Source of the DNA: Puniceicoccaceae bacterium Marseille-Q1082
GTDB taxonomy: Bacteria; Verrucomicrobiota; Verrucomicrobiia; Opitutales; Intestinicryptomonadaceae
DNA: 64,000 nt
Assembly: GCA_904424815.1 (NCBI GenBank)
Contig: CAJGBI010000001.1
Coordinates: forward strand, 124,001-188,000
Reading direction: 5' to 3'
The notes beneath the pieces were generated by a model. The model ran no database searches, was not told where the DNA came from, and was given only the letters and a program-made list of their open reading frames with translations. Position numbers and translations under genes: made by a program. How positions within the stretch are numbered: position 1 is the first letter of the stretch; each line of letters opens with the position of its first letter. Positions 14,106 to 30,874 of the stretch are shown one piece after another.

Positions 14106-14834
14106 TCACGCGCAGCCGGTCAGGCCGCCGTCTATTGTGAGGGTTTGGCCCGTTATATAGGAGGAGGCGCCGGAGGCGAGGAAGAAGGCGGCTTCGGCGA
14201 CTTCTTCGGGCCTGCCGAAGCGCTTTAACGCTATTCTCTCCCTTTGCCTGGCGGCGATGTCGCGCGGAATTTTGGCGGTCATGTCGGTTTCTATGAATCC
14301 CGGGCAGATCGCGTTTGCGCGTATGCCTTTCGCTCCAAGCTCCGCGGCGCATGCCCTCGCGAGGGCGCACAGCGCCCCCTTGCTCGCCGCGTAATTCGCC
14401 TGTCCCGCGACTCCAACGAGCGCGGAGACCGACGACACGAAAATTATCGAGCCCGACTTTTTCGCGTACATTTTCTTTGCCGCGCATTTTGTCCACGCGA
14501 ACGCTCCGTCGAGGTTTGTGTCGAGCACTTCGCGCCACGAGGATTGCGGCATGGTCATCATGAATCCGTCGCGCGTTATTCCGGCGTTGTTGACGAGAAC
14601 GTCTATCGCGCCGCTCTCGGAATATATTTTGTCGACTGCTTCGGCTATGGCGACGGGGTCGCCCTGGCGGCAGCGCAGGGCGGAGGCTCCGGTTTCGGCG
14701 GCGAGCTCTGCCGCGGCGGATTCGGAGTTTGCGTACGTAAAATAAACTTTGGCGCCCGCGGCGGCGAACCTTTTGACTATCGCCGCGCCTATGCCGCGGG
14801 AGCCGCCCGTGACTATTGCGATTTTGTCTTTCAT
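14106..14834 (-). CDS. fabG: 3-oxoacyl-ACP reductase (FabG-type ketoreductase)
   Basis: A 242-residue short-chain dehydrogenase. The nucleotide-binding motif is TGGSRGIG (residues 9-16), followed by NNAGITRD (about 82-89). The catalytic residues are Ser135, Tyr148 and Lys152 (VSSVSALVGVAGQANYAASK), and the C-terminal PGFIETDMTAKIP and GQTLTIDGG are typical of FabG. It would reduce beta-ketoacyl-ACP intermediates with NADPH. It is the last gene of a leftward operon with a thioesterase (1-bp gap), a GcvT-like protein and an ACP, so it is likely the dedicated ketoreductase of the biosynthetic cluster. I cannot exclude that it also serves primary fatty acid synthesis. Confidence 0.93.
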   Translation of the reverse strand: MKDKIAIVTGGSRGIGAAIVKRFAAAGAKVYFTYANSESAAAELAAETGASALRCRQGDPVAIAEAVDKIYSESGAIDVLVNNAGITRDGFMMTMPQSSWREVLDTNLDGAFAWTKCAAKKMYAKKSGSIIFVSSVSALVGVAGQANYAASKGALCALARACAAELGAKGIRANAICPGFIETDMTAKIPRDIAARQRERIALKRFGRPEEVAEAAFFLASGASSYITGQTLTIDGGLTGCA

Positions 14835-14835
14835 G

Positions 14836-15258
14836 TCATTTTAACCGTCGGTATTTTTCCATAATCTCCGGCGCGAATTCCCTCAAAAGCTTCATCGTCC
14901 GCATGTTTGCGAGCGCGCAGACGCATTCTCCGCAGGCGTGGAGCGCGCCGGTTTCGGCGTTGCGCAGCTCGTGGGAAAATTCCAGCTTTCCGGAAAAGGC
15001 GTCGTCGATTTTGTGCCGCGTGAGCAGTTCGAGCCTGTCGCCGATTCTCACGGGGGCGAAGTATTCGCACGAATTTTTTACGACGGGAACGGCGATGTCG
15101 AGGCGGCGGGCGTCGTCGAGGCTGAGGACTTCGTTCATTATCGAGAGCCTTCCGCGCTCGAACCACTCGAAGTACACGCAGTTGTGGACCACCCCCATGA
15201 TGTCGATGTCCCGAAATTCGGGCGCCACCGCGAGCCTGCGCGTTATCCTCCGGGGCAT
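14836..15258 (-). CDS. Hotdog-fold acyl thioesterase (4HBT type)
   Basis: A 140-residue protein of the 4-hydroxybenzoyl-CoA thioesterase family. The signature RDIDIMGVVHNCVYFEWFERGR near the N-terminus carries the catalytic Asp and the His-Asn turn of the YbgC subgroup. It would hydrolyse an acyl-ACP or acyl-CoA thioester. The start is the ATG at 15258 sharing its A with the stop of the GcvT-like gene, so translation is coupled. In arylpolyene-type clusters a thioesterase of this fold is a standard accessory, and its position here supports the same role. Confidence 0.85.
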   Translation of the reverse strand: MPRRITRRLAVAPEFRDIDIMGVVHNCVYFEWFERGRLSIMNEVLSLDDARRLDIAVPVVKNSCEYFAPVRIGDRLELLTRHKIDDAFSGKLEFSHELRNAETGALHACGECVCALANMRTMKLLREFAPEIMEKYRRLK

Positions 15259-16328
15259 TACTGCTGCATTCCCCTTACAAGGCTTTCGGAGACCGTCATC
15301 GGGCGGGAGACCGTGAATATGTCCGGTTCCCCTCCGGCGGCGGAGGAGAGCTCGAGCGACGGGTACGCGAAGTCCGACTTTATGAGCGCGAGCCCTATGT
15401 TGTCGCCGAGCTGCGTCGAGCGCATGGCTACTTTGACTTCCCCTATATCGCATCCGCCGTCGAAAACGCGCGCGCCGGCGCTCACGCCCGCGCCGCGCAC
15501 CGCAGTTATCCTCGCGGCGGCTCCGGCTTCGCGGGCTTTGAAAATCGCGCCGGAGCCCGTGAAAGACTCTTTCGAGAAGTCCGCCATCCATTGCAGGCAG
15601 AGCTCAATCGGGTTTCCGACGGATTTTCCCTCCTTGTATATGTTGAAAAATCCGCTCTCGAGCCTCGCCACCGCGTGGGCGTCCGTCCCGCATGGCATTC
15701 CGCCGGCTTTTTTGACGGATTCAAGCAGCCTTTGCGCGAGCTTTTCGGCGTTCGCCGCGGGGACGGCGAAGGAGTATCCGAATTCGCCGGTCTTCCCGTT
15801 GCGCATGAGGTAAGCGGGCTCGCCCTCAAATTCGTATTTTTCCACCGCGAGGTACGGCAGGTTGAATATGTCGGAGCCGAAAATGTCTCTGGCGACTTCC
15901 CACGCGCGCGGGCCGTCCACGGAGAGAACCGCGAAATCCCCCGTCGCGTCGCGCCCGCCGCCCTCCGCGAGCGGGCCGGAAGAGTCTTCGAGCGATTCGA
16001 GCACGGCGAAAACTTTGTCGTCTATGTTGGCAACGAACGCTTCCGCCGCGATTCTGCCGTCGGGGTAGGCGAGGAACGTGTCGATTATCCTGCCGTACCG
16101 CAGCTTCAAAATGTTTGCCGCAAGCTTTCCGTCGAGAAAGTCTATGCCGTCGGACTCGGGGAATTCCGCGATTCGGACGAATGAAAAGTCGCACAGGGCG
16201 GCGGAATTGCGCAGGGCGGAGTATTCGGCTTCGGGGTTCCCGAAGTTTGCGGCGCACTGCGCGCCGCCGAGCTCGCCGAAGTTCGCGCCGAGCTTCGCCC
16301 AAAAATCTTTTAGCGGAAGTTCCCTCAT
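15258..16328 (-). CDS. GcvT/YgfZ-fold folate-binding protein
   Basis: A 356-residue protein with the aminomethyltransferase (T-protein) fold. Recognisable segments are ALRNSAALCDFSFVRIAEF (the GcvT 'R..aglfD.s....i.v.G' start), FLDGKLAANILKLRYGRIID, FAVLSVDGPRAWEVARDIFG, and ARLESGFFNIYKEGKSVG, which holds the conserved Glu of the folate site. It is not the housekeeping glycine cleavage gene, since no gcvH or gcvP is nearby and it sits inside a lipid-polyketide operon between an ACP and a thioesterase. Its reaction is unknown; C1 transfer from a folate, or an Fe-S related role as in YgfZ, are possible. Confidence 0.75.
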   Translation of the reverse strand: MRELPLKDFWAKLGANFGELGGAQCAANFGNPEAEYSALRNSAALCDFSFVRIAEFPESDGIDFLDGKLAANILKLRYGRIIDTFLAYPDGRIAAEAFVANIDDKVFAVLESLEDSSGPLAEGGGRDATGDFAVLSVDGPRAWEVARDIFGSDIFNLPYLAVEKYEFEGEPAYLMRNGKTGEFGYSFAVPAANAEKLAQRLLESVKKAGGMPCGTDAHAVARLESGFFNIYKEGKSVGNPIELCLQWMADFSKESFTGSGAIFKAREAGAAARITAVRGAGVSAGARVFDGGCDIGEVKVAMRSTQLGDNIGLALIKSDFAYPSLELSSAAGGEPDIFTVSRPMTVSESLVRGMQQ

Positions 16329-16606
16329 TTTTTATCCTGCTCCGAAATTATGAAGTCCGCGAGGGTGTTGAGCGACCTCAGCGCGAGCGTCTGCCCCTCG
16401 GGTATCTTTACGCCGAAATTGTTTTCCACGCACAGGACGATTTCGAGCACGTCGAGCGAGTCGAGCCCGAGCCCCGAGCCTATCAGGGCGATGTCCTCGC
16501 CAATGTCGCGCGGCTCGTACGGTATGTCGAGAGCCTCGATGAGCTTTTCTTTCAGCAGAAGCGAAACTTCCCTCCTGCGCGACAGCTTTTGCTGATTGTT
16601 GGGCAT
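16325..16606 (-). CDS. Acyl carrier protein 1 of the biosynthetic cluster
   Basis: A 93-residue ACP. The phosphopantetheine attachment serine is Ser50 in GSGLGLDSLDVLE, and helix 2 (VLEIVLCVENNFGVKIP) is typical. The N-terminus is extended by about 10 basic residues. It is the first gene of the leftward operon, overlapping the GcvT-like gene by 4 nt. Together with the ACP at 20.8 kb it gives the cluster two carrier proteins, as in arylpolyene clusters. Confidence 0.92.
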   Translation of the reverse strand: MPNNQQKLSRRREVSLLLKEKLIEALDIPYEPRDIGEDIALIGSGLGLDSLDVLEIVLCVENNFGVKIPEGQTLALRSLNTLADFIISEQDKK

Positions 16607-16659: not shown

Positions 16660-17412
16660 ATGGGAGATTCATTTCAAGTTCAAAGCGAGCCGCCTCCGTG
16701 CGTGCGGATTTGCGCGCTGGTTCCGTGCCACAACAACGCGGATACGGTGCGCGGCGTCGTGCGCGGGCTGCCGGCGGGAACGTTCGCGATTGTCGTTGAC
16801 GACGGCTCGGACGTTCCGGCGCCCGCCCAGTCGCCGATGTGCGAGGTTTTGAGGTTCCCGCGCAATCGGGGCAAGGCGGAGGCTTTGAAGGCCGGATTCG
16901 CCGAGGCCGCGGCGAGGGGCTTTACGCACGCCGTGGCGCTCGACGCCGACGGGCAGCACCCGCCGGAGCTCTTCGGAAAGTTCGCGGAGGCGGCGCGCGC
17001 AAACCCGGGCGCGATAATAGCGGGCGTGCGCGACTTTTCAGGGAAGTCAGTCCCGCCCGCCAGAAGGTTCATGAACAAATTTTCAAACTTCTGGTTCAGG
17101 TTCGAGACATCCGTTGATTTGGGCGACACGCAGTGCGGGTACAGGTGCTATCCGCTCGAAAAGGTTTCGCGGCTGAAAATTTCGCGCGGCGGATTCGCCT
17201 ACGAGGCAGAGTTGCTCGTCCGCGCGGCGTGGGCGGGAATAGAGATAATCCCCGTCGAAGTGCCGGCTATATACACCGAGGAAAGCCTGCGCGCGTCGCA
17301 TTACCGCCCGATTGCCGACACCGCGCGGTTTTCGGCGATGAACGCCGGATTCGCCTTCATGTCGCTCGTTCTGCCGAGAAAATTTTTGAGGAGGCTCTCC
17401 GTAGCGGAATGA
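16660..17412 (+). CDS. Family 2 glycosyltransferase
   Basis: A 250-residue GT-A fold enzyme resembling dolichyl-phosphate mannose synthase-like GT2 proteins. Motifs are ALVPCHNNADTVRGVV at the start, VVDDGSD (46-52) for the nucleotide, and ALDADGQHPPEL with the metal-binding DxD at residues 95-97. The later GDTQCGYRCYPLEKV and the Glu-rich EAELLVRAAWAGIEI also fit. It has no membrane segments. GT2 enzymes accompany arylpolyene clusters and could glycosylate the product or its lipid anchor. It overlaps the MMPL gene by 4 nt. Confidence 0.88.
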   Translation: MGDSFQVQSEPPPCVRICALVPCHNNADTVRGVVRGLPAGTFAIVVDDGSDVPAPAQSPMCEVLRFPRNRGKAEALKAGFAEAAARGFTHAVALDADGQHPPELFGKFAEAARANPGAIIAGVRDFSGKSVPPARRFMNKFSNFWFRFETSVDLGDTQCGYRCYPLEKVSRLKISRGGFAYEAELLVRAAWAGIEIIPVEVPAIYTEESLRASHYRPIADTARFSAMNAGFAFMSLVLPRKFLRRLSVAE

Positions 17413-19808
17413 ATTTTGCCGAAAAATTCGTCAGGTTCGCATACCGCCGCCGCCCGTTTTTTGCCGCCGCGTTTGCGGCAATGTGCGTTGCGGCGTTTTT
17501 TGCCGCAAAGGCCGCGCCCTTTAAAACCGACGCATTCGACCTGCTGCCGTTCAGGGACGCGCGGATAGAGAACGCCGAGAGGGCGGCAAAGTGGTTCGGG
17601 GCGTCGGATTCCCTGTATTTTAACGTTTCGGCGAGCGGCTCCGAAACCGCGCGGAATTGCGCCCTCGCACTGAAAGGGGAGCTCGCCAAGGAGGGGTTCG
17701 GCTTTGCGGAATTTCCGGATCCCGCGAAGGCCGCGCCCGAAATTTTCCGCGCGTACCCCGCGCTGTTCGACGACCCCGCGGCTTTGGAGCGCGCCATTTC
17801 AAAGGTGGAAATTCGCAAGCGGTTTGCCTTTTACATGCGCAGGATGGCGGGTTTTGAGGCGCCCGCTTTCAAGGCGGCGTTTTTATCGGATCCTGTCGGC
17901 GCGGTGCCGGCGGTTCTCGCGAACTTGAAAAACTTGGCGCGTGGCATGGGGGGCGCGTCGTCCGACGGCTCTCTCGTATCGGACGCCTCCGGAAAGAATT
18001 TTTTGCTCGTCGCGCGCGCGCCCGCCGACCCGCGCGATTCGGACGAGGCCGCTCGCGTGTGCGCCGCGGCCGCCGGAGCGGTCGCGGCGGCGGAACGGGC
18101 GTTTCCGGGCGCCGAAATCGACTGGGCGGGCGCGCACAGAATATCCGCCGACAACGCGCGAATTGCGCGCGCGGATTCCTCCGCGTGCCTTCCCGCGACG
18201 TGCGCGCTGATGCTCGCGCTCTGCATGTTCGCGTTCCGCAACAGGCTGTTCGCGCTCGCGGCGGTCGCGCCTTCGCTATTGGGGAGCGCGGCGGCGTTTT
18301 GCTTTGCGTGGGCGGCGTTTGACGAGATTTCGTCCATATCGGTGGCGTTTGCGTCCATCGCCATGGGGGTAGGGATAGACTACGCCATACACATATTGTA
18401 CCCGCTCGATTTGCGCGGGAAATTCGGAATAGATTTCGCCGCCAAGACTGCCGGAGCGCTTTTAAGGCCCGTTTCCGTCATTTGCGCAACAACCCTGCTG
18501 GCGTTCGCCGCCGTGGCGTGCCTCGGCGGGGGAATGGCGCAGCTCGGGATTTTCGGATTCGCGGGAGTGGCTGCGTCGGCGGCGATTTCCGTGCTGGCGC
18601 TTCCGGCGTTCGCCGTGGGCATTTCGAGGGGCGGATTGCGCCCGACTTTCCTCGAAAAGTTTTCGGAAAAGCTCGTGGAGCCGCAGATGCGCCGCCCGCG
18701 CGCGTTTTTGTTCGCGGCGTCCGTTTTGACAGCCGCCGCGCTGCCGTTTGCGCTGGGAGTTGTTTTCGACGGCAGAATATCCGCCCTAAACGCCCTTTCC
18801 GACGATTCCGCGGCCTCCGACGCGAAAATCCGCGAAGTGTGGGGCGGGGCGGTTTCCGCGCCGCGGATAGTCGCGTTCGGAGACGGCGAAGACGCCGCGC
18901 TCATCTCCCTCGCGCGGGCGGAGGAGGCCGCCGCGGGGGTCGCCGGAGCGGAGCCGTCATGGGTCTCCAAACTCTGCCCGCCGAGGGAGGCGGAAGAGCG
19001 CAACCTTGCGCGCTGGGAGGCTTTTTGGACTCCCGCAAGGCTCGAAAAATTCTCGCGGGACCTCTCGGAGGTCTGCCGCGAAAACGGGGTGTCCCCCGAG
19101 ACCTTCAGGCCCGCGCTGGATTTTCTGGCGTCCGCGCGCCGCGGGTCCGCAAGCCTGCGGAACTCTCCGGAAATGTCGAAGATTTTTGCGGGCAGGATTT
19201 TTTCGGAGGGGCGGACAGCCGCCGTCTGCGCGCCCGTTTTTGTCGGGGAGGGGGTATCTAAGGACGAGCTCGCGCGGGCGGTGGAGTCCGCGGGCGGCGG
19301 GGCGTTTCTCCTCGACATGGAATATCTGGGCGACCGCATTTCCGAATCCGCGCGCGCCGCGTTTTTAAAGTGCGCGGCGTTCGCGCTCGCGGCCGTGGGG
19401 GTTTTTCTCGCGTTCGCGCTGCGCTCCGCCAAAAGGGCGGCGTGCGTCATGGCGTGCGTGTGCGCTGGGCTCGTGTGGTGCTTTGCGCTGATGAAAATTT
19501 TCGGGGTCGCCATAACTCTTACCAATTCGGTGTTCGTCATATTTTCGGTGTGCCTGGCGCAGGACTATGCCGTGATGATTCTCTGGGCGGCAGGTCGGGG
19601 AAACGCAAGGCCGGCGGCGGGGCCCGTGCTGCTTTCGGCGCTCACCACTTCCGCCGCATTCGGCGCGCTCGCCTTCGCAAGGCACCCCGTCATAAGCGGG
19701 CTCGGGGCCGCCGCGGCGATTTCAATACTGTCCATATTCTGCGCGTCGCTGTGCGTGGCGCCCGCGTGGGCGAAAATTTCAGGGGAGGGCTCCGGCGGTG
19801 GGCGGTAG
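17409..19808 (+). CDS. MMPL/RND-type lipid exporter
   Basis: A 799-residue integral membrane protein with two repeats, each a large periplasmic loop followed by several membrane helices, as in MMPL/RND transporters. An N-terminal helix (RRPFFAAAFAAMCVAAFFAA) is followed by the first loop and then helices around residues 255-400 containing SIAMGVGIDYAIHILYPL, where the Gly-Asp-Tyr element corresponds to the proton-relay motif. The second helix block (about 650-790) includes VCLAQDYAVMILWA. It starts at the ATG overlapping the GT2 stop. Similar exporters occur in arylpolyene clusters and probably flip the lipid-linked product across the inner membrane. Confidence 0.86.
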   Translation: MNFAEKFVRFAYRRRPFFAAAFAAMCVAAFFAAKAAPFKTDAFDLLPFRDARIENAERAAKWFGASDSLYFNVSASGSETARNCALALKGELAKEGFGFAEFPDPAKAAPEIFRAYPALFDDPAALERAISKVEIRKRFAFYMRRMAGFEAPAFKAAFLSDPVGAVPAVLANLKNLARGMGGASSDGSLVSDASGKNFLLVARAPADPRDSDEAARVCAAAAGAVAAAERAFPGAEIDWAGAHRISADNARIARADSSACLPATCALMLALCMFAFRNRLFALAAVAPSLLGSAAAFCFAWAAFDEISSISVAFASIAMGVGIDYAIHILYPLDLRGKFGIDFAAKTAGALLRPVSVICATTLLAFAAVACLGGGMAQLGIFGFAGVAASAAISVLALPAFAVGISRGGLRPTFLEKFSEKLVEPQMRRPRAFLFAASVLTAAALPFALGVVFDGRISALNALSDDSAASDAKIREVWGGAVSAPRIVAFGDGEDAALISLARAEEAAAGVAGAEPSWVSKLCPPREAEERNLARWEAFWTPARLEKFSRDLSEVCRENGVSPETFRPALDFLASARRGSASLRNSPEMSKIFAGRIFSEGRTAAVCAPVFVGEGVSKDELARAVESAGGGAFLLDMEYLGDRISESARAAFLKCAAFALAAVGVFLAFALRSAKRAACVMACVCAGLVWCFALMKIFGVAITLTNSVFVIFSVCLAQDYAVMILWAAGRGNARPAAGPVLLSALTTSAAFGALAFARHPVISGLGAAAAISILSIFCASLCVAPAWAKISGEGSGGGR

Positions 19809-20685
19809 GGTCGCGTGGAGCGGGAAGTCCTACGGCGGGTACTGGGGGACGCTGTCGTTTCTGGCGCTCCTGAAAATAGGGCTTTTGCCCGCGTACTTTC
19901 TGCTGGCATTCGTCGCCGCGTTTTTCGTCCTTTTCAGGCGCGGGGCGGTCGCCCCGATTGCCGACTACCTCGCGCGGATTTCCGGGCGGCGCGTGCGCGG
20001 AGTGTCGTTTGCGGCGTACGGAAGCGTTTTTTCCTTCGGAATGTCGATTCTTGACAGAACCGCCTATTTCGCGGGCTGCGGCTCGATAAAGGTGGACGAC
20101 GAAAGCTTTGCGCAGATCGCGGAGGCGCGCGCTAAGGGTCGTGGGGTTCTTATATTGGCGTCGCACACGGGCGGCTGGGCGATAGCCTCCGGAGAGCTCG
20201 CCGCAAAATTTCCGGACGCCGCGGTAGTTGGCGCCGACCGCGAGAGGGCTGAAATACGGAAGCTGGTGGACTCTTCGCGCGCGAGGGCGGCGCCGGAGAC
20301 GCTCTCGGACTTTTCCGACGGATTTTCGCCGGTGGCGGTCTACGCCGCCCTGCGCGCGGGAAGGATCGTGGCGATGCACGCCGACAGGGACGCCGGCGGG
20401 AGGTCTGCAAAGGCGCGGTTTCTGGGGGCGGAGGTGCGCTCGCCGAGCGCGCCGTACGCCTGCGCGTGGAGGGCGGGCGCGGAGGTTCTGCAAATATTCT
20501 GCTTCCGCGAATCCCCGTTTAGATACAGGACGTTCTGCGAGCGCATAGACCTTTCCGAATGCCCGTCGGCCGACGGCGCGGCGGAGTCGGGGGCCGGGCA
20601 GTTTTTTTCGAACCTCGAAAAATTTTTGCGCCGCTATCCCCGACAGTGGTACAATTTCTACGATTTTTTTGGAAAAGGCTCCTGA
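19798..20685 (+). CDS. LpxL/HtrB-type acyltransferase
   Basis: A 295-residue membrane-associated acyltransferase starting at a GTG that overlaps the exporter gene by 11 nt. It has an N-terminal hydrophobic helix (about 21-45) and the family's active-site motif as SHTGGWAIAS with His123, then a conserved Arg/Asp region (MHADRDAGGRSAKARFLG) and a C-terminal RYPRQWYNFYDFF. Lipid A late acyltransferases use acyl-ACP donors; cluster-located homologues are thought to attach the polyene or fatty chain to a lipid or sugar. The acceptor is unknown here. Confidence 0.87.
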   Translation: MGGRVAWSGKSYGGYWGTLSFLALLKIGLLPAYFLLAFVAAFFVLFRRGAVAPIADYLARISGRRVRGVSFAAYGSVFSFGMSILDRTAYFAGCGSIKVDDESFAQIAEARAKGRGVLILASHTGGWAIASGELAAKFPDAAVVGADRERAEIRKLVDSSRARAAPETLSDFSDGFSPVAVYAALRAGRIVAMHADRDAGGRSAKARFLGAEVRSPSAPYACAWRAGAEVLQIFCFRESPFRYRTFCERIDLSECPSADGAAESGAGQFFSNLEKFLRRYPRQWYNFYDFFGKGS

Positions 20686-20812: not shown

Positions 20813-21076
20813 ATGGACAGGGACGCTCTCGTTTCGGACATAAAGAAAAAACTGGTTTCGGCTCTCAACCTCCAGGGAATGCCGGAGGATTCTATCGGCT
20901 CCGACACGCCGCTATTCGGCGATGGCGGATTGGGGCTCGACTCCGTGGACGCGCTCGAGCTCGTAGTGATGGTAGAAAACGAATACGGGGTTTCGGTGGG
21001 CGACAAGGACGCAGCCTCCGCCGTGTTCGCGTCCGTGAACGCGCTCGCCGACTACATAATCGCCAACAGAAAATGA
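20813..21076 (+). CDS. Acyl carrier protein 2 of the biosynthetic cluster
   Basis: An 87-residue ACP with the pantetheinylation serine Ser44 in GLGLDSVDALE and the following helix VVMVENEYGVSVGDKD. It begins 127 bp after the acyltransferase and overlaps the start of the KS-CLF gene by 4 nt. The tight coupling to the KS-CLF suggests it is the carrier used by that condensing enzyme. Confidence 0.94.
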   Translation: MDRDALVSDIKKKLVSALNLQGMPEDSIGSDTPLFGDGGLGLDSVDALELVVMVENEYGVSVGDKDAASAVFASVNALADYIIANRK

Positions 21077-23217
21077 CGCGGCGCCCGACAGTCGTCTCTT
21101 GCGGGCTCTGTTGCGCCTCGGGAACGGGCGCGGGGGCGGCGTACAGGGCGTCGTTCGGTCCGTCGGGGGCGCTCTTTCGCGAACTCGGGGGCTGCGGGCT
21201 TTTCCCTTTGCCGCGCAGGGCCTCCGTCCGCGTGGGGGCGGCCTGCGGATTCCGTAGCTCGAGGCTTCCGAGGTGCGCGCAAATTCTCTTCGCCGCGCTT
21301 GACGAGGCGCTTGCGGACTCGCCGCTCGAAGGGATCGCGCGCGACAGGATAGGGGTTTACGCGGGAACGTCGGTCGGCGGTATACTCGAGTCCGAAAACG
21401 CCCTTCGCGAAATTCTGGAGGGCTCGGAAAATTCGGACGGCGCGTTCAAATTTTACGAATGCTCTTCCGTCGCGGAGCTCGTGGCGAAAAAAATCGGGGC
21501 CAGGGGCGAGTGCTCGACATTTTCGACGGCGTGCTCGAGCTCGTCGCTCGCGCTCGAGTCCGCGTGCCTTGCGATTTCGGAGGGAAGGGCGGACGCGGCG
21601 GTCGTATGCGGCGCCGACACGCTCTCGCGCATAACGGTGGACGGATTCGGGTCTCTCATGCTGCTTTCAAAGTCTGACTGCCGCCCGTTCGACGCCGCGC
21701 GCGACGGAATAAACCTCGGCGAGGCGGGCGGGGTTATGGTTTTGATCGCGCGCGAATTTCTCGGCGGGCGCAGGGCAATCGCGGAGTTTTTGTCTTTCGG
21801 CTCGACCTGCGACGCGTACCACGCCACGGCGCCGCACCCGCAGGGGAAGGGCCTTGAGGCGGCCATTTCCCTCTGCCTGAAAAGCGGATCTATCGAGCCT
21901 TCGGAGGTGTCGTACTATTGCGCCCACGGAACGGGAACCGGAGCGAACGATTCTGCGGAACTCGCGGCGCTGCGCGCGGTTTTCGGCGAAGGCGCGCCGC
22001 CGTATTCGTCGCTCAAATCCGCATTCGGGCACACGCTGGGCGCGAGCGGCATTCTCAACGCGATAGTTGCCGCCGCCGCGCTCTGCGACGGAGTTTTGCC
22101 GCCGTCGGCGGGCTATTCGTCCGGCGCGTCGCCGGAGCCGATTGTGTCTCCGCAAAAAACCGCGGGGAAAATCGCGCTTTCGGCGAGCTTGGGATTCGGG
22201 GGGAACAATTCGTGCGCGGCCATTGCCAAGGGGGAAAGCGGGCCCAAATCGCCCGCCGGCGCGTCGGCGCGGAGGATTTTCGTGTACGGAGCGGGGGGCG
22301 CGTCGGCGAATCCGGATTTGTCAAAACCGCTTTCGGCGCGCTCGCGCGCGCAGCTGGATTCCGACTCCCTCCTTCCGGACATTCCCGTCTTAAAAAAGCG
22401 CAAGTGGGCGAAGCTCCAGCGCATGTTTTTGTCCGCCTCCCGCGGCGCCCTTGCCGCCGCGCGCGGGGCGAGGCTCGGGGAGCGCGCGTGCGTCAGCTGC
22501 GCCACGGGTCTCGGAATGGCCTCGGAGACGCAAAAATTTCTCGAAAGCGTCCTGTTGAAAGATTCGCCGCTCCCGACGGCGTTTACCAATTCGGTCCACA
22601 ACGCTCCGTCTTCGGCAGTGGCGGAAATGTTCGGCTGCCGCGGCTACAATTGCGCTACAACCGCAAAGGAGGTCTCCTTCGAGGCGGCCCTGATGGAGGC
22701 GCGCGCGCGGATCCGCGGCGGAAGCTGCGATTCCGGAATCGTGGCGGGCGGCGACGAATGCGACTTTTTTGCGGAGAATTACGCGCGCCGCAATCCGCTT
22801 CCGGCGGGCGCTGGGGCGTTTTCGGATTCTTGCGCGGCGTATTTTATAGGCGCGGAGGGCGCCTGCGAATCGGCGCCCGCCGCGGAGATTCTGGCTCTTA
22901 AAATCCGCAGGGCTTCCAAGCGCGCGGAAGACGAAGAAAAGCGGGCTATCGAAACCCTCGCCGAAGCGGGGCTTTCGCCCTCCGATGTCTCGGCGTGGTT
23001 TTGCCCCTGCCGCCTCGGAGGGGCGAAAGGGAGAACGCTCGAATTTCTCTCGGGGCGTTTCGGCGGGTTTGAATACCTCGAAGACTTCGCGGGGCGCAAT
23101 TACAGCGCGTCGGCTTTCGGGATTCTCGCGTCACTCGGGCGGGGCGCGGGAATTTTCGCCCAATATTCGCTTTCGAGCACGTCGATGGCGGCTCTTACGG
23201 TCTGGAGGGTTTTATGA
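21073..23217 (+). CDS. Fused ketosynthase plus chain-length-factor-like protein
   Basis: A 714-residue protein with two thiolase-fold domains. The first (about 1-390) is a complete FabF-type ketosynthase with catalytic Cys154 (TFSTACSSSSLAL), His285 (CAHGTGTGANDSAE) and His320 (SAFGHTLGASGI). The second (about 400-714) matches the short ketosynthase-like family (PF13723 type) found in arylpolyene clusters, with FTNSVHNAPSSAVAEMFG around residue 509 and a degenerate active-site region TTAKEVSFEAAL where no catalytic Cys is present. It thus looks like a chain-length factor fused to its ketosynthase. In arylpolyene systems these are usually separate genes. It overlaps both neighbours by 4 nt. 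Confidence 0.86.
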   Translation: MTRRPTVVSCGLCCASGTGAGAAYRASFGPSGALFRELGGCGLFPLPRRASVRVGAACGFRSSRLPRCAQILFAALDEALADSPLEGIARDRIGVYAGTSVGGILESENALREILEGSENSDGAFKFYECSSVAELVAKKIGARGECSTFSTACSSSSLALESACLAISEGRADAAVVCGADTLSRITVDGFGSLMLLSKSDCRPFDAARDGINLGEAGGVMVLIAREFLGGRRAIAEFLSFGSTCDAYHATAPHPQGKGLEAAISLCLKSGSIEPSEVSYYCAHGTGTGANDSAELAALRAVFGEGAPPYSSLKSAFGHTLGASGILNAIVAAAALCDGVLPPSAGYSSGASPEPIVSPQKTAGKIALSASLGFGGNNSCAAIAKGESGPKSPAGASARRIFVYGAGGASANPDLSKPLSARSRAQLDSDSLLPDIPVLKKRKWAKLQRMFLSASRGALAAARGARLGERACVSCATGLGMASETQKFLESVLLKDSPLPTAFTNSVHNAPSSAVAEMFGCRGYNCATTAKEVSFEAALMEARARIRGGSCDSGIVAGGDECDFFAENYARRNPLPAGAGAFSDSCAAYFIGAEGACESAPAAEILALKIRRASKRAEDEEKRAIETLAEAGLSPSDVSAWFCPCRLGGAKGRTLEFLSGRFGGFEYLEDFAGRNYSASAFGILASLGRGAGIFAQYSLSSTSMAALTVWRVL

Positions 23218-23819
23218 AGCGCGCATTCGCATATTTGCTGTTGTTTCTCGCGTGCGCGGCGGCCTTCGCGCGCGGCGGTTCGTCCGTAATACTGTTCGAG
23301 ACGAAAAAGTACGTCAGCTTTTTCGACGCCCCGATAGCGGGGAAGTCCGCCCTCGCGTCGGATTCGGAAGGCAGGGTGCGCTGGCAGACGCTCGAACCCT
23401 ACGTTTCCGCCATGATTTTCGACGGGTCGGAGGCAGCGGCGTTTGAATTCGAGGGCGGAAAATGGCGGCGCGCCGACATGCCGGCCTCGCGCGCCGTGGC
23501 GGAAGTAATGGCGGGGCTCAAAGGCGCGATTTCGGGCGGCGGCGTTCCCGAAAAGGTTTTTGGCGTTTCCAAAACTTCCGGAGATTCATATGCCCTCGTC
23601 CCGAAAGATCCGGCGATAGCCAGGGCTGTGAAGTCTATAACGGTGAAATTCTCCGCGGGCTCGCGGGAGCCGGAGCTCGTCACGGTGCACGACCCGTCGG
23701 GCGACAGGACCGAGATGCGCGTCGTAAAGCGCGCTGCGGGGGACTTCGACATATCCGCCGCTTTCGACGTCTCCGATCCGTCGGCGTTCGACCCCAAAAC
23801 TTTCCTCGAAAAAAAATGA
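23214..23819 (+). CDS. LolA-like periplasmic carrier of the cluster
   Basis: A 201-residue exported protein with a signal peptide (MKRAFAYLLLFLACAAAFA). The mature part has the alternating beta-strand pattern of LolA-like proteins, including FETKKYVSFFDAPIAGKSAL (the 'F...K....l..P..S.G.l' feature) and RVRWQTLEPYVSAMIFDG (the 'W....P....ii.dg' feature). LolA-like proteins next to MMPL exporters in arylpolyene clusters are thought to ferry lipid across the periplasm. It overlaps KS-CLF upstream and the following exported protein by 4 nt. Confidence 0.8.
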   Translation: MKRAFAYLLLFLACAAAFARGGSSVILFETKKYVSFFDAPIAGKSALASDSEGRVRWQTLEPYVSAMIFDGSEAAAFEFEGGKWRRADMPASRAVAEVMAGLKGAISGGGVPEKVFGVSKTSGDSYALVPKDPAIARAVKSITVKFSAGSREPELVTVHDPSGDRTEMRVVKRAAGDFDISAAFDVSDPSAFDPKTFLEKK

Positions 23820-24346
23820 GGGTTTTCGCTTCGCTTCTGGTTTTCGCGATTCTTTCCGCGCGGGCGTTCTGCGCGGATTGCGCGCACGGGCTGTCCCTCT
23901 ACAAATCTTACGTGCAGAGGGGGACGATTTCGTTTTGGTGCGCGGAAATTCCGGTCGCCGTGTACGCGGCCAAAACTTCCGGAGGCGGGCGCGCAATGGT
24001 TGTGGACGGCGGAGGGACGCTGATAAAGGCGAAGTTTTCCGCCGACGGCCGCGCCGAGGAGATTTTCGTATCGGATCTCATGCCCGGAGGCGAGGCGGCG
24101 GGGAGGCTCGCGGCGGACGCGTTCAGGCTCGCCCTCGGGCTCTTCGACTCCGTGCGCTCGGGCGAATTGCGCTCGCTCGCGGTTGACGGCCTGCCCAGAT
24201 TCGCCGAGACTGAAAACGTAAGGGTTGAGTTTTCCGACTACAAAAAAGAGAAGTCGTTTTCCGCCCCACAAACCCTCAAAATATCGGCGGGGTGCGCGAA
24301 AATAATTTTGCGCCTGTCCGCGTCCGAAATCGGGCCTGAAAAATGA
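23816..24346 (+). CDS. Small exported protein, DUF3261-like position
   Basis: A 176-residue protein with an N-terminal signal sequence ending near ARAFCADC. The second Cys could be lipidated but the preceding residues do not make a standard lipobox. The body is beta-rich and Gly-rich with no recognised motif. In arylpolyene clusters this slot (after the LolA-like gene) is usually a DUF3261 outer-membrane lipoprotein. I infer a similar receptor role from position and size only. Confidence 0.55.
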   Translation: MRVFASLLVFAILSARAFCADCAHGLSLYKSYVQRGTISFWCAEIPVAVYAAKTSGGGRAMVVDGGGTLIKAKFSADGRAEEIFVSDLMPGGEAAGRLAADAFRLALGLFDSVRSGELRSLAVDGLPRFAETENVRVEFSDYKKEKSFSAPQTLKISAGCAKIILRLSASEIGPEK

Positions 24347-27300
24347 AAGTCACTTTCGTCTATCCGCGCTTTGAAAAATTTTTGGAGTCGGTCTCGAAGA
24401 TGGAGGCCGAGAGCAAATTTTTTACCGTCGGAAAATTCACGTGCCCGCCGTCCCTGGGCATACCGATTCTCGCAAGCCTCACGCCGCCCGACGTCGAGAC
24501 CGCCTTTGTTGACGACAACGCTGGCGAGAAAATCGACTTTTCCGACGGCACGGACTTATACGCGGTAAACTGCTTCACCCCGCAGGGCACGCGGGCATTG
24601 GAGATAGCGCGCGAGTGCCGCGCGGCGGGCAAAACCGTCGTGATGGGCGGAATGTTCCCGAGCTTCATGGCTGACGAATGCCTGAAAGTTGCGGACGCGG
24701 TGTGCGTGGGGGAGGGGGAGTACACATGGCCGGAGCTTCTCGCGGATTTCAGGCGCGGAGCATTGAAGCGTGTTTACAAAGCTTCCAAACCGGCGGACAT
24801 GTCCGAAATGCCCGAGCCGCGCCGCGACATTTTCTACGGCAAGCAGTGCTACGACTGGGACGAGGATCTGATACAGCTCACGCGCGGATGCCCCTACGGA
24901 TGCGCGATGTGCATAATACCGGCGCACATGGGCAGCCGGATGCGCTTCAAACCGGTGGAGATGGCGGTCGCCGAAATAAAAAACATGCGCCACCAGAACG
25001 TTTACCTCACCGACGATTCGCTGTTTTTCCCGCAGAAGGCGGTTCGCGAATACGCCGAAAGGTTCTTCGACGCGGTTGGGGGCCTCGGGCGGAAATTCTT
25101 CGTATCGTCGACCATGGCGCTCAATTCGGACGAGGCGTTTTTTGCGCGCGCGGCCGCTGCGGGCGTAAAAAATTTCTACTGCACCCTCAACGTCGATCCC
25201 GCGTCAATCGCGATAATGCGCGGGGACGACTCGGGGCTCGGGCGGCTCGGGGAGTTCGTTGACATGCTTCGGACGATGGGCATAAGCTTTTTCGCGTCTT
25301 TCGGGCTCGGACGCGACTGGGACGGCGAAGGGGTCTCCGACAGGGTTCTCGAAATATGTTCGCGCGCCAGGATAACGATGTCGGAGTTTTTCATATTTTC
25401 CCCGTACCCGGGTTCTCCGCACTGGCGGAGGCTCGAGTCGCAGAACAGGATAACGTCGCGCGAATGGCGCAAATACAACGGCGCGCACGTGGTGTTCGAG
25501 CCCGCCAAGATGTCCGCGCAGAGGTTGCGCGAGGAATTTGTGAATTGCTGGAAAGGATTTTACGAAATGAACCAGTCGAGGAATCTCGCGCAGATGGAGC
25601 CGAGCGTTTGGTGCGGCGAAGAGCTCAAAGTTTCCAAGCGCCTCGAAGCGCGCGGAGTGGGGCGCGAGGCCGCCGTCACGGGAATCGGGATAGTTTCGCC
25701 GCTCGGATGTTCGCAGGGCGAGACGCTCGCCGCGCTGAAAGAGGGCAGGGACGGGATAGGCCCCTCGGCGAAGCTCGACCTTTCGCCGTTCGCGTCGAAA
25801 ATTTGCGCCGAGGCAAAGGGCTTCGACCCGTCGGGGCGCATGAGCCCCGCGGAGCTCGCAGAGTATACGGATCCGTTCATACGCATGGCTGTTTGCGCGG
25901 CGAGGGCCGCCGTTGAGGATTCCGGCGCGGATTTGTCGGCTTATGCCGGAAGGATAGGGTATGTGCTCGCCACATGCAACGCGGGCTTGAATTCCGGCGA
26001 GGCGGAGTATCGGCAGAAGTACGGGGAGGCCGTGGAGTTCGACAGGCATGTCTCGGCGCAGTCGGAGTTTTACGCGCTCCAGAAGGCGCTCGTCTCCGCA
26101 GTCGGGTTCGGCGGCGAGTGCTGGATGGTGAACACGGCGTGCTCCGGCTCCACCGCAGCGATAGGGCTCGCGCAGACGCTCGTGGAGTCCGGCAGGTGCG
26201 ATATTGTGGTAACCGGCGGCGCGGACGCGCTCGCGCTCTCGAATTTCGCGGGGTTCAGCGCCATAAAAGTCGTCTCCCCCGAAAAGATCGCCCCGTTTTC
26301 CACCCCCGAGGGCATGAATATCGGAGAGGGCGCGGCGTTTTGGGTTGTCGAGAATTTGGGAAAGGCGCTTTTGAGGAGCGCCGAGTGCAAATGCAAAATA
26401 ATAGGGCACGCCACGACCGCCGACGCCCACCACCCGACGCAGCCCGACCCGCGCGGCGACGGCGTGTACCGCACCCTGCGCGACGCCGCGGCGGACGCGG
26501 GCGTTTCGGCGGGGGACTTGGGGTGCATCAACGCCCACGGTTCCGGCACGTCAGCCAACGACAGGGCGGAGTCGAAGGGCATAAAAAAGTTTCTCGGGGA
26601 AACCGCCGTGCCGGTGACTTCCACGAAGTCGTACATGGGCCACTGCATGGGAGCTACCGGAATTTTGGAGGCGACGTGCCAGGTTTTGTCCATGAACGCC
26701 GACTTCGTGCCCCCGACGCTGCGCAATTCCGGCCGGCGCGCGGGCTGCGAAATTTCCGCGCTCGCCGAGCCCCTGCACAAAAAGTACGATTGCTTCATAT
26801 CCGCAAACTACGCATTCGGCGGCAACAACGCCGCGGTCGTGATTTCAAAGCGCGATTTCATTTCCAAAAAGCCCGCGCGCGACTACGGCGCGGAAATCGC
26901 CATCACGGGGCTCGGCGTGGTCTCGCCGCTCGGGACGACGCTCGCGGAAAACGTCGAAGCTCTCGCGGAAGGCTCCTGCGCGGTCTCAAAAATTGGGAGG
27001 TTCGAGTGCGCGCATATGGGCGGGCTCGTCCCCCCGCTGAATCCGCGGACTCTCGACAGGCGCGTGGACTTCTCGGGAATGAACAACATCAGTTTGTATT
27101 CGACGCTCGCGGCAAAGCGCGCGCTCGATGGCGCGGGCGCCGCGCTCTCGCGCTCCAAATCCGAGAAGATCGCCATAACCGCCGCCATAAGCAGGGGGTC
27201 GAGCGAGAGCAGGCACATGGACGCCGTGTTTTCCAACCCCGAAAGGCGCGGCGACGTGGGGTGCTTTTCCAACGTCACCGCCAATTCCACGGCGGGCTGG

Positions 27301-28053
27301 GTTTCCAAGGCGCTCGACATAAAGGGGCCGAACATCACGCTTACGCCAGGCCCGAACGGCGGATTGCAGGCGGTGGGATATTCCCTCGACGTCTTGCGCG
27401 AACGCCGCGCTGAGATGGCGGTGGCGTTCGCCGCCGACGAGCTTTACGCCCAGCAGATGGCGGGCTACGGAAAGATCGGCAACCTGTATTCCGGCGAAGA
27501 GGAGGCGGATTTCAGGCTGCGCTTCGGCGACCCGTTCAAAACCGTGTACGGCGAGGGCGCGTGCGCGCTCGTTCTCGAGGCGCGCGCTGCCGCTGAAAGT
27601 CGCGGCGCGCAGACATACGGCACGGTTCTCTCGTTCGCGTCCTACGAGGAGCCCGGGGAGTTCGCGGACGCCAACCTAAAAGGAGAGGGGTTGGGAATTG
27701 CTGTGGAACAGTCGCTTTCCCGCGCCGGATTGGGCGCGGGGGAAATCGATCTCATAGTTTGGAGCCCCCGCGGAGACGCCCAAGACGAAAAGGTTTTGCG
27801 CCTGCGCCGCGGGCTCTTCCCGCGCGCGGGGATTGTGACGAACGTTTTCAACACGGGCTATGTGGAATCCGCATCGGCGATTTCCGCGCTTGCGGAGGTT
27901 TTGTACTGCCTGAAAAACGGAATCGCGCTCTGGCGGCAGAGGACCGGGCTTGCGGAAATCGACGGAGCTCCGCTGCCGGATTCTCCGAAAAATATCCTGT
28001 GCATGGCTTCAAGCCATGTCGGAAACAATTTTTCCCTCGCCTGCCGGGTTTGA
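24343..28053 (+). CDS. B12-type radical SAM - ketosynthase - chain length factor fusion
   Basis: A 1236-residue three-part protein. Residues 1-165 resemble the Rossmann-like cobalamin-binding domain of class B radical SAM enzymes (VVMGGMFPSFMADECLKVAD, VCVGEGEYTWPEL), without a canonical DxHxxG. The radical SAM core follows with CxxxCxxC at Cys183, Cys187 and Cys190 (LTRGCPYGCAMCIIP). From about residue 443 a FabF-type ketosynthase carries Cys600 (NTACSGSTAA), His732 (NAHGSGTSANDRAE) and His767 (YMGHCMGATG). From about 850 a second thiolase fold has TPGPNGG in place of the active Cys, as in a chain-length factor. No stop or frameshift separates the parts. It overlaps the previous gene (ATGA) and is the last rightward cluster gene. 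An oxygen-sensitive modification of an ACP-bound chain is inferred. Confidence 0.88.
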   Translation: MKVTFVYPRFEKFLESVSKMEAESKFFTVGKFTCPPSLGIPILASLTPPDVETAFVDDNAGEKIDFSDGTDLYAVNCFTPQGTRALEIARECRAAGKTVVMGGMFPSFMADECLKVADAVCVGEGEYTWPELLADFRRGALKRVYKASKPADMSEMPEPRRDIFYGKQCYDWDEDLIQLTRGCPYGCAMCIIPAHMGSRMRFKPVEMAVAEIKNMRHQNVYLTDDSLFFPQKAVREYAERFFDAVGGLGRKFFVSSTMALNSDEAFFARAAAAGVKNFYCTLNVDPASIAIMRGDDSGLGRLGEFVDMLRTMGISFFASFGLGRDWDGEGVSDRVLEICSRARITMSEFFIFSPYPGSPHWRRLESQNRITSREWRKYNGAHVVFEPAKMSAQRLREEFVNCWKGFYEMNQSRNLAQMEPSVWCGEELKVSKRLEARGVGREAAVTGIGIVSPLGCSQGETLAALKEGRDGIGPSAKLDLSPFASKICAEAKGFDPSGRMSPAELAEYTDPFIRMAVCAARAAVEDSGADLSAYAGRIGYVLATCNAGLNSGEAEYRQKYGEAVEFDRHVSAQSEFYALQKALVSAVGFGGECWMVNTACSGSTAAIGLAQTLVESGRCDIVVTGGADALALSNFAGFSAIKVVSPEKIAPFSTPEGMNIGEGAAFWVVENLGKALLRSAECKCKIIGHATTADAHHPTQPDPRGDGVYRTLRDAAADAGVSAGDLGCINAHGSGTSANDRAESKGIKKFLGETAVPVTSTKSYMGHCMGATGILEATCQVLSMNADFVPPTLRNSGRRAGCEISALAEPLHKKYDCFISANYAFGGNNAAVVISKRDFISKKPARDYGAEIAITGLGVVSPLGTTLAENVEALAEGSCAVSKIGRFECAHMGGLVPPLNPRTLDRRVDFSGMNNISLYSTLAAKRALDGAGAALSRSKSEKIAITAAISRGSSESRHMDAVFSNPERRGDVGCFSNVTANSTAGWVSKALDIKGPNITLTPGPNGGLQAVGYSLDVLRERRAEMAVAFAADELYAQQMAGYGKIGNLYSGEEEADFRLRFGDPFKTVYGEGACALVLEARAAAESRGAQTYGTVLSFASYEEPGEFADANLKGEGLGIAVEQSLSRAGLGAGEIDLIVWSPRGDAQDEKVLRLRRGLFPRAGIVTNVFNTGYVESASAISALAEVLYCLKNGIALWRQRTGLAEIDGAPLPDSPKNILCMASSHVGNNFSLACRV

Positions 28054-28106: not shown

Positions 28107-29165
28107 TTACCGGCGCGCGGAGTCGGCGGCGCGCTGGCTTTGCGGCTTGGCGGGGGAATCCGAAAAGTCCGCGTCCGAAAACGCGCCCCTGAAATCCGCG
28201 CTCCATTCTAAAATCGCGCTGCCCCACGACAGGCCGGCGCCGAACGCGCAGACGAGGACTTTCATGCCGGACTTGAGCCGCCCGGAAATCGCGGCGTCGG
28301 CGAGGGCTATGGGGACGCTCGCGCCACCGCAGTTGCCGATGTCGTGCATTTTGTAGTAGACTTTTTCGGGCGGGATTTTCAGCCGTTCGGCGCATGACTT
28401 CACTATCATCTCCCCAGCCTGGTGGAACACGAAGAGATCTATGTCCGAAACCGACATGCCGTTTTTTCCGAGGATTTCCGCGACCGATTCCGCCGCGCGC
28501 CTGTACGCGAACGCGAAGATTTTAAAGCCGTCCATCCTCATGCGTTCGGAGGCTCCGCCGCCCGATTTGCGCATGGCGGAGTTCGGCCAGATTATGCCGT
28601 CGTATCCGGAGCCGTCGGCGCCGAAGGAAAAGTCCGAGAACGCCGCGGCTTCGGTTTTCGAGACGGCGCACGCGGCGGCTCCGTCGCCGAACACGCACGC
28701 TGTCGAGCGGTCGGAAGGGTCGAGGATTTTTTGCGGAGTGTCGGCGCAGAGCACGAGGGCCTTGTCCGCAAGCCCGCCTTGAATCCATGAGCGCGCCGCC
28801 GCGAGCGCGTAGACGAACTGCGAGCACCCGAGGTTCATGTCGAAGGCCGCGCAGGAGCTGCCCATTCCGAGCCTGTCTTGCAGAATGCACGCGGTAGTCG
28901 GAATCAGGTAGTCGGGGGTTTGGGAGGCGAAGATCAGCAGGCCGAAGTCCTTCGGCGAATACCCCGCTCCGGTGAAGAGCAGGCGGGCGGCGCCGGCGGC
29001 GAGGTCCGAGGCGCACTCGTCCGCCCCCGCGCGCCTGCGCTCGAGTATGCCGGATACCGCCTCGATTTTTTTCATCGCCGTTCCGCCGAAGCGCGCGGAG
29101 AGATCCGCGCCGGTTATTTTTCCGACCGGCAAAGAGTACGCGAGCGATGTTATTGAAACTCCCAT
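28107..29165 (-). CDS. FabH-like ketoacyl-ACP synthase III
   Basis: A 352-residue KASIII-type enzyme. The catalytic triad is visible: Cys114 (DMNLGCSQFVYAL), His248 (FVFHQAGE) and Asn278 (HDIGNCGGASVPIAL). It would perform a starter condensation, typically with acyl-CoA and malonyl-ACP. The C-terminus carries about 25 extra residues rich in Ser, Asp and Ala. It is transcribed toward the radical SAM-KS-CLF gene and ends 53 bp from it. A second housekeeping fabH elsewhere would be expected; this copy is probably the priming enzyme of the cluster. Confidence 0.88.
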   Translation of the reverse strand: MGVSITSLAYSLPVGKITGADLSARFGGTAMKKIEAVSGILERRRAGADECASDLAAGAARLLFTGAGYSPKDFGLLIFASQTPDYLIPTTACILQDRLGMGSSCAAFDMNLGCSQFVYALAAARSWIQGGLADKALVLCADTPQKILDPSDRSTACVFGDGAAACAVSKTEAAAFSDFSFGADGSGYDGIIWPNSAMRKSGGGASERMRMDGFKIFAFAYRRAAESVAEILGKNGMSVSDIDLFVFHQAGEMIVKSCAERLKIPPEKVYYKMHDIGNCGGASVPIALADAAISGRLKSGMKVLVCAFGAGLSWGSAILEWSADFRGAFSDADFSDSPAKPQSQRAADSARR

Positions 29166-29315: not shown

Positions 29316-30874
29316 TTATTTTCTCCTGCGCCACGCGGCGAGCGAAAGCGCGAGCGCGCCGAGGATTGCCGCCGCCAACGCGGGTTCGGGGACCACGCCG
29401 AGCGACAGCTGCACCGTCGTGAACCCCGAGGAATCGTCGGCGAGGAAGCTCAATTCGCCGTCTATTCCCGCCTGCGTTTTGAGGATTATGTCAGCGAGGT
29501 CGAAATCGGAGTCGTCTGTTTTGAAGCTCATCAAATTCCATTCCAGAGTTTCCGCACCGAGGGTATCGAGATAAATTTGAAGATCGTCCTTTGATATGTT
29601 TATGTCGAACACTATTTGCGCTCCCGTGGAGGATTTCGAGACTCCGCCGTTTATCTGTATGAAGTCGCTTTCAACTTCGCCGAGGTCGAAAACTATCGTG
29701 CCTTCGTAGAAGGTCATGGAGTCGAACTGAACCCTTCCGATTTCCTGCCCCGAAGAGAGCCCCGCCGCGCTGAACACGGCGTCGGCGGCGTTGCCGCTGT
29801 ATCCGTAGAGGCTGAGGTTGGCGCCCTTCATTCCGCCGTGCATTCCGAGGTCGAGCCGCCCGCTGCTGATTTCAACATTGTTTATGTTCGCGTCGTACAC
29901 CTGAACGCCGTTGCACCAGTAGGGGCTGCCTATGGAGTCGAACCGCAGAGCCTGCCTGCCGTTTCTGGCGTCGGAGGCCGTCATTGTGATGTTGAGCTTG
30001 TCGTCGTTGTTTTCCTGCGTAGCGAACGACGTGGCAAGGTCGAACGCTCCTCCGTTTGTGAACACGAGATTTACCGTTCGGGATCCCGCGGTCACCCAGC
30101 CTTCTTTGGTGATGTTCAGCCTGGCGGTTCCGCTTATGCCCCCGACGGAGCGTATGAAGGTGTCGGAGCGCGAATTGTCCCTTAGAATGTTCCATTGCGA
30201 GCCGTTGAGATTCATTGAGCCCCCGACGGTAAAACTCTTGTTGTTTGTGGTGAATATGAGGGTGCTTGCGCCGGCGGAAACTACATTTCCGTCCACTTGG
30301 AAGTTCACTTCGTCAGGCGACCCCTCGCTGTCGTCTATCATCAGGGAGAGGTAGTTTTTGGAGTCGTTTCTGTTTGAGTTGATAATCCAGTCGCCTCCGA
30401 TTTGCACCGAGGATCTGTCCCACATGTTTATGCGGCGGGTTATCTGGTTGCCCGTCGTCACGGAAGGGTCGTTCAAAAGCGTGAAGCTCATGACCAAGTC
30501 GCCCGACGTCCGGAGAACGGAGTCGTTCCCCAGTACCATAAATTGTCCGCCGGCGGAGGTGTCCGTTTCAGAGTAGCTGAGACTGTCAAAGACAGGCTTC
30601 TGGTTTGCGGCGACTTTTACCGGAGTCGCGCCGCCGCCCGAAATATAGGCGTCGTGCGAGCCGTCGAGGGAGCCTTCAAAGGGGGCGGTTTTTTCGGGGT
30701 TAGTAAACCAGTTTGCGGGATTGTTTATGTACGACGAATCGTTGTCGGAGATGTCGTTAAAGTACAGGCTTTGCGACTGCGCTCCGGCTTGCGGCGCAAT
30801 GAAAGTCGCCGCGGCAAATGCCGTAATTATCAGCGTATTATGCGCATGGGGGGGGGGGTGATATTGGTTTTCAT
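29316..30874 (-). CDS. PEP-CTERM exported protein with frameshifting poly-C tract
   Basis: The main frame (30848-29316) encodes a signal peptide core (NTLIITAFAAATFIAPQAGA), an Asn/Ser/Gly-rich beta-helical, autotransporter-like body, and a C-terminal PEP-CTERM sorting signal (VPEPALAAAILGALALSL followed by AAWRRRK). That frame has no start codon of its own near the signal peptide. The only plausible start is the ATG at 30874, preceded by AAGGGG at 5-nt spacing and encoding MKTNITPPP. It leads into an 11-base C tract and then, in the present register, to a TGA at 30832-30830 after 14 codons. One more C would join ATG and main frame into about 520 residues. As read, the gene is OFF or the homopolymer is miscounted. 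Confidence 0.8.
30848..30858 (-). repeat. Poly-C (poly-G) homopolymer of 11 bases
   Basis: Eleven G residues on the plus strand read as C on the coding strand, within codons 6-9 of the PEP-CTERM gene. It is the longest G/C homopolymer noticed in the window and lies precisely between the start codon and the signal peptide core. Confidence 0.93.

Follow-up and report, generated by a model that had tools for sequence, protein, structure and literature searches.

When a radical S-adenosylmethionine (SAM) enzyme is encoded next to a lipid or polyketide synthase, the two are usually distinct proteins, and it is hard to tell which substrate the enzyme takes and when, as in the ladderane pathway. What such an enzyme might do when it is part of the synthase itself is the question raised by a gene of Puniceicoccaceae bacterium Marseille-Q1082 (phylum Verrucomicrobiota, order Opitutales), located in a 64,000-nucleotide stretch of its genome (assembly GCA_904424815.1, contig CAJGBI010000001.1, positions 124,001–188,000; hereafter 'the window', meaning the whole stretch analyzed). 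The gene encodes one protein in which a cobalamin (B12)-type radical SAM domain is followed by a ketosynthase (KS) and a domain resembling a chain length factor (CLF). Such a covalent fusion names its partner KS and, by proximity, the chain bound to an acyl carrier protein (ACP) as the candidate substrate, and thereby makes the pairing testable with one protein and two ACPs. Fused and unfused clusters within one bacterial family add a natural, built-in comparison.

The initial annotation of this locus, made from the sequence of the window alone, had described an uninterrupted three-domain frame, and this was borne out. Translation of positions 24343–28053 (plus strand) gives 1236 residues with no internal stop, and searches with Pfam and NCBIfam profiles identified an N-terminal B12-binding/radical SAM region, a FabF-like KS in the middle (ketoacyl-synt, 1.1e-41; Ketoacyl-synt_C, 7.3e-29) and a weak KS-like part at the C-terminus. 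The motifs named at that time are in place: CxxxCxxC at residues 183–190 (C183, C187 and C190; nucleotides 24889–24912), GEGE at residue 123, and the KS residues C600, H732 and H767, which, together with K762, are each invariant in the 17 KS domains compared (one cut gene, from genome G658, was omitted from this count). The second thiolase fold had been described as lacking the catalytic Cys; at the corresponding position the 17 CLF-like domains carry P, A, L, Y, S, E, Q or D, and none carries Cys. The best explanation of the KS and CLF-like domains is a covalent KS-CLF pair, predicted to fold as a pseudo-heterodimer.

A missed stop or frameshift at residues 430–445 had been named as the observation that would overturn this picture. 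The fused frame reads straight across the junction in the window and in 10 other assemblies, and these 11 intact frames from 11 assemblies rule out both an assembly error and a missed stop; of the 11 genes, contig ends truncate 4 and the other 7 are complete, with the stop confirmed for G011 and G013. All 11 share the junction motif EP(S/A)x(W/F)-x6-(V/I)(S/G)K-x-(L/M), with W at the aromatic position in 10 and F in G791, and all 11 keep CxxxCxxC. The KS Cys lies at residue 600–603 in each of the nine fused proteins that keep the N-terminus and reach that Cys. Chance adjacency is ruled out by this conserved junction together with the single clade formed by the fused domains (below). Codon-position mismatches among the three nearest copies indicate purifying selection in all three domains, strongest in the radical SAM domain (about 0.23, 0.17 and 0.57 at codon positions 1, 2 and 3, with few second-position changes); the three closest copies are 70–73% identical in that domain, 66–69% in the KS and 49–54% in the CLF.

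The taxonomic spread, which the initial annotation had proposed to check, proved to be that of a protein family rather than of a single case: the same fusion junction occurs in 11 genomes of the phylum, across two classes, which rules out a one-off event in the genome of the window. The search covered this phylum and plasmid records, using overlapping, evenly drawn and non-exhaustive genome samples. Within the family of the window (in Opitutales) the full fusion is present in 3 of 19 genomes, including that of the window, and the two other proteins are 62–64% identical to the window protein. Among 226 genomes of the same class, two besides that of the window are fused (from two further families, 52–56% identity), the remaining match in that sample (G839) being a stand-alone gene at 33% identity. 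The second class yielded six fusions among 288 genomes, with the radical SAM domain, at 51–55% identity, running into the KS, and a phylum-wide sample of 387 genomes contained one fusion besides that of the window (G532, also counted in the second class). The next-best radical SAM matches (201 bits in the search that included the unfused relatives, 246 in the phylum-wide sample, 240 at 35% identity in the second class and 227 in the same class) lie in frames of stand-alone size, and none of seven weak matches in longer frames that we checked (G178, G467, two of G479, G355, G536 and G745) is another radical SAM-KS fusion. No plasmid record has one place covering 80% of the window protein; the closest record that bears a name is CALXLN010000132.1, from a metagenome assembly of Opitutales.

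Orthologues of the KS-CLF portion were counted as well. In the second class they occur in 5 of 288 genomes and all five are fused. In the order Opitutales they occur in 14 of 253 genomes, all within the family of the window; 3 are fused, 10 are unfused, and one (G012) was excluded from this comparison because its contig ends inside the KS. The radical SAM domain is thus absent from 10 of the 13 family members with a readable junction, and these 10 retain the KS-CLF gene at the same locus, along with the surrounding cluster wherever the contig shows it. At a threshold of E ≤ 1e-25 the domain has no homologue in any of the 10 unfused genomes; two of them (G014 and G017) encode other proteins that match the radical SAM core weakly (E of 2e-4 and 6e-4). 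The absence of the domain from clusters that keep KS-CLF, ACPs and exporter suggests a separable tailoring unit rather than a part of the condensation machinery, and is what would be expected of an optional tailoring step. We also noted, in a genome without the fusion (G007), a diverged CLF-like piece (contig L045, 9231–10226) with no orthologous KS found beside it.

We propose that the window protein would serve as a complete elongation unit in a type II polyketide- or fatty-acid-like pathway, the product of which may be a polyene-type lipid destined for the cell envelope by export. Chain extension on the two ACPs would fall to the covalent KS-CLF pair. The radical SAM domain, tethered to the KS by a short conserved linker, would receive the same ACP-bound chain and act on it in cis; the likeliest modification is C-methylation, for which methylcobalamin and a 5'-deoxyadenosyl radical would be used. 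Judged from sequence, action of the domain in cis on the ACP-bound chain, most likely as a C-methylase, is a proposal that we find about as easy to accept as to doubt. The fixed, conserved junction suggests that the domain works on what the KS holds, and the initial annotation's proposal of an ACP-bound substrate fits the single clade, the linker, the presence of two ACPs with a GLGLDS motif and the existence of clusters that lack the domain; the reaction stays a prediction, and methylation, cyclization and rearrangement, all three of which had been listed, are not separated by sequence. Excerpted text of PMC13142503 gives methylation as the commonest reaction of the cobalamin radical SAM class. 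More tentatively, we suggest a radical methyl insertion or ring closure at an unactivated carbon during iterative elongation, which would place radical chemistry in the programming of the chain and not in post-assembly tailoring.

The window protein passes the cut-off of the Pfam B12-binding model (PF02310, 34.2 bits against 32.1) and falls just short of that of Radical_SAM (PF04055, 27.4 against 29.5), which 8 of 10 orthologues pass. Two more B12-binding proteins are encoded in the genome, one in a frame of 1230 residues and one in a frame of 733, the sizes of MetH and methylmalonyl-CoA mutase, which makes cobalamin use plausible. Among models of known function the best-scoring for the window protein is HpnR (TIGR04367, 61.7 bits), a stand-alone cobalamin radical SAM hopanoid C-3 methylase that acts on the finished lipid.

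Several observations weigh against a methylating domain that acts in cis. The cut-off of PF02310 is passed in only 6 of the 11 fused sequences (one of the other five lacks its N-terminus). The window protein reaches no curated model, the best being one of unknown function (TIGR04013, 69.8 of 251 bits), and its match to HpnR lies far below that family's cut-off of 650 bits. Two of the second-class fused orthologues were scanned, and they score at least as high with BchE (44.0 and 52.2 bits) as with HpnR (43.5 and 45.6 bits). The best solved structure for the clade profile is the apramycin oxidoreductase 6fd2, which we take to be AprD4, a non-methylating dehydratase. Finally, the unfused relatives could also mean that the radical SAM domain matters little.

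The BchE scores bear on a second possibility, that the domain works in cis on the ACP-bound chain and carries out a ring closure or a rearrangement, the kind of reaction known from BchE, HpnJ and OxsB and proposed for ladderane lipids. PMC13142503 ascribes ring formation or rearrangement to non-methylating members of the class, and one of the nearest stand-alone relatives (contig L159) belongs to a lipid cluster that also encodes a ladderane-type radical SAM protein. The window protein itself, in contrast, scores 26.7 bits with BchE, below HpnR, and 53.9 bits with the ladderane-type model TIGR04072, short of its cut-off of 360; a phytoene-desaturase-like gene was not seen among the cluster proteins scanned. 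On balance we consider ring formation or rearrangement rather unlikely.

The four nearest stand-alone relatives are 30–35% identical to the fused domain. Two (L159 and L122) sit with an LpxL-type acyltransferase, and no KS was seen near the other two (L194 and L195). In L159 (2712–11916) the relative is accompanied by a SPASM radical SAM gene, the acyltransferase and a weak LolA match, as well as by BchE-like and ladderane-type radical SAM genes (the latter at 300 bits, cut-off 360), a KS, a ketoreductase (KR) and an ACP. Four contigs (L080, L125, L126 and L133) carry three or four neighboring genes for B12-type radical SAM proteins that are kin to the fused domain. In G639 the gene two positions upstream of the fusion also encodes a B12-type radical SAM protein (L157, 7450–9234, minus strand), its best models, a P-methyltransferase and BchE, both being far under cut-off.

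Two readings would deprive the radical SAM domain of a role on the tethered chain. One is that the fusion merely couples expression or localization, with the domain acting on a lipid or head group that is no longer attached to ACP, as HpnR does on finished hopanoids; the LpxL-type acyltransferase, glycosyltransferase and exporter of the cluster likewise suggest a finished lipid. The start of the fusion gene, though, lies within the stop of the preceding open reading frame (ORF; 23816–24346, overlap ATGA), which indicates a tight operon, and such overlapping genes already give co-expression; the short linker of fixed length, conserved across two classes, and the constant position of the KS Cys suggest instead a defined interface. 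Mere coupling thus appears improbable. The other is that the domain is catalytically dead or structural and is being lost. Its absence from most family members is as this would predict, but in the genes that have it, it is better conserved than the KS and the CLF-like domain and keeps all three motif Cys residues, and we give this reading scarcely any credence.

The fusion probably arose once, since the radical SAM domains of all 11 fused genes fall into a single clade (support 100/100, 11 of 17 rows; 100/99 in a second tree, 9 of 41 rows). In the 17-row tree the nearest stand-alone kin of that clade are genes of G602, G396 and G839 and a second gene of G784. In a KS-CLF tree the fused rows from outside the family of the window branch outside that family, and the family's own three fused rows do not form a clade by themselves, G011 grouping with unfused rows (99/98). 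The first such tree was rooted on the other KS of the window, on a very long branch; a tree rebuilt without it, also with a long outgroup branch (Priestia), gave the same reading. The simplest history consistent with these trees is an ancestral fusion followed by repeated loss of the radical SAM domain within the family. Alternatively, the family may have gained the domain by recombination with a fused gene: its three radical SAM domains form one clade (100/100) when their KS-CLF parts do not, and inspection by eye revealed no remnant of the domain upstream of the 10 unfused genes. Set against this, KS-CLF orthologues outside the family are all fused (the 5 of 5 above, plus G784) and branch outside it, and to account for the unfused state takes no fewer than two changes on the starred branches and three on the best tree. 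We consider such a gain unlikely and prefer ancestral fusion with repeated loss.

The features of the locus are collected in the table below.

Table. Domains of the fusion gene and neighboring genes (positions within the window)
Feature	Position	Strand	Remarks
Three-domain protein (B12-type radical SAM, KS, CLF-like)	24343..28053	+	1236 aa; 10 fused homologues
Cobalamin-type radical SAM domain, residues 1–423	24343..25611	+	Profile matches and motifs
Junction/linker, residues 424–440	25612..25662	+	Position conserved, sequence partly
KS domain, residues 441–838	25663..26856	+	C600, H732, K762, H767
CLF-like domain, residues 845–1236	26875..28050	+	Catalytic Cys and His positions not conserved
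SDR ketoreductase (FabG-like; KR)	14106..14834	-	Also near the fusion in relatives
4HBT/YbgC-type thioesterase	14836..15258	-	Start as read here
GcvT-like folate-fold protein	15258..16328	-	
ACP 1	16325..16606	-	GLGLDSL
Family 2 glycosyltransferase	16660..17412	+	
MMPL/HpnN-type RND exporter	17133..19808	+	Longest ORF; true start probably later
LpxL-type (Lip_A_acyltrans) acyltransferase	19798..20685	+	
ACP 2	20813..21076	+	GLGLDSV
Second KS with C-terminal CLF-like part, no radical SAM	21073..23217	+	714 aa; second part weak (PF13723, 21.3 of 25 bits)
LolA-like carrier	23214..23819	+	PF03548, 23.4 of 23.6 bits, just below cut-off
Small secreted or lipoprotein-like ORF	23816..24346	+	176 aa; frame reading; matches in some relatives
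FabH-type KS III beside the cluster	28107..29165	-	

The cluster probably contains two covalent KS-CLF pairs, with and without the radical SAM domain. Part of its gene set recurs in relatives: an ACP, the GcvT-like protein, the thioesterase and the KR adjoin the fusion in G605, G631 and G784, as does a second KS gene of 741–756 residues (KS plus a CLF-sized C-terminal part), and the ACP and GcvT-like genes do so in G639 up to the contig end; the short contigs of G532, G658, G668 and G791 showed none of these genes, and in G532 an AMP-binding ligase adjoins the fusion. The genome of the window has two FabH genes, one adjoining the cluster and one elsewhere, and no cluster FabH was seen outside the family. 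The GcvT-like protein occurs in these clusters whether or not they have the radical SAM domain (G010, G006, G001 and others lack it); all seven copies aligned from the phylum carry D or E near what we take to be the position of the GcvT catalytic site. It is unlikely to be a partner of the radical SAM domain, because it occurs without that domain in relatives and in Priestia. Next to the cluster, a possible PEP-CTERM protein is encoded at 29316–30539 (minus strand; NF038129, 22.4 of 65 bits).

Components of these kinds are known, and it is their covalent union that appears to be new. No title or abstract opening among the best-ranked papers listed by our searches of open-licence full texts, which covered neither subscription papers nor protein databases, describes this fusion; its novelty is therefore provisional.

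Among known systems the closest in gene content are the aryl polyene (APE) clusters, which comprise KS-CLF, ACPs, KR, thioesterase, glycosyltransferase/acyltransferase, LolA and MMPL proteins. The locus resembles them (ApeO-ApeC as KS-CLF, ApeR) in its KS-CLF, ACPs, KR, thioesterase, glycosyltransferase, LpxL-type acyltransferase, LolA-like carrier and MMPL exporter, and its second KS matches structure 6qsp, presumably ApeO, at 1.8e-49. It differs in that KS and CLF are fused, twice, once with a radical SAM domain, and in the presence of GcvT-like and FabH proteins. APE clusters also have a dedicated dehydratase and starter ligase, neither of which was found among the window cluster proteins scanned, and an aromatic ammonia lyase for the aryl starter, which is not in every APE cluster. 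The genome of the window (96% complete) has no match to the lyase model PF00221, which 5 of 14 control genomes matched; this weakens the case for an aryl polyene in the strict sense, and an exported polyene-type lipid with a non-aryl starter would fit. In APE synthesis a heterodimeric KS-CLF acts alongside a homodimeric KS (PMC8358021, in part). Plasmid pBMG6 of Priestia megaterium carries a core without radical SAM (a KS-CLF fusion, GcvT-like protein, ACP, FabZ, FabG and thioesterase) at about 30% identity, with a transporter annotated as MFS in place of MMPL and LolA.

Ladderane-type fatty acid synthase II (FASII) clusters of Kuenenia and Desulfotalea have SAM-radical genes among FabF-like genes, and a phytoene-desaturase-like gene, in the portion of PMC2649909 concerned; the word fusion is absent from that paper's main text. 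Their genes are separate, in contrast to the window, and it is the L159 cluster that offers a similar setting. The initial annotation's ladderane comparison has some basis in two of the stand-alone relatives, with the acyltransferase beside L159 and L122 and the ladderane-type surroundings of L159, and less in the window, whose fusion protein scores low with the ladderane model and whose cluster looks more APE-like. SwfC of sponge symbionts is likewise a B12-type radical SAM protein, encoded as a separate gene beside a mono-modular type I polyketide synthase and regarded by its authors, in the relevant part of PMC3908369, as perhaps a methyltransferase acting after the synthase. The fusion in the window differs from it both in being covalent and in its type II-like partner. 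For action in cis, the analogy is with the C-methyltransferase domains of iterative polyketide synthases, which use a different chemistry.

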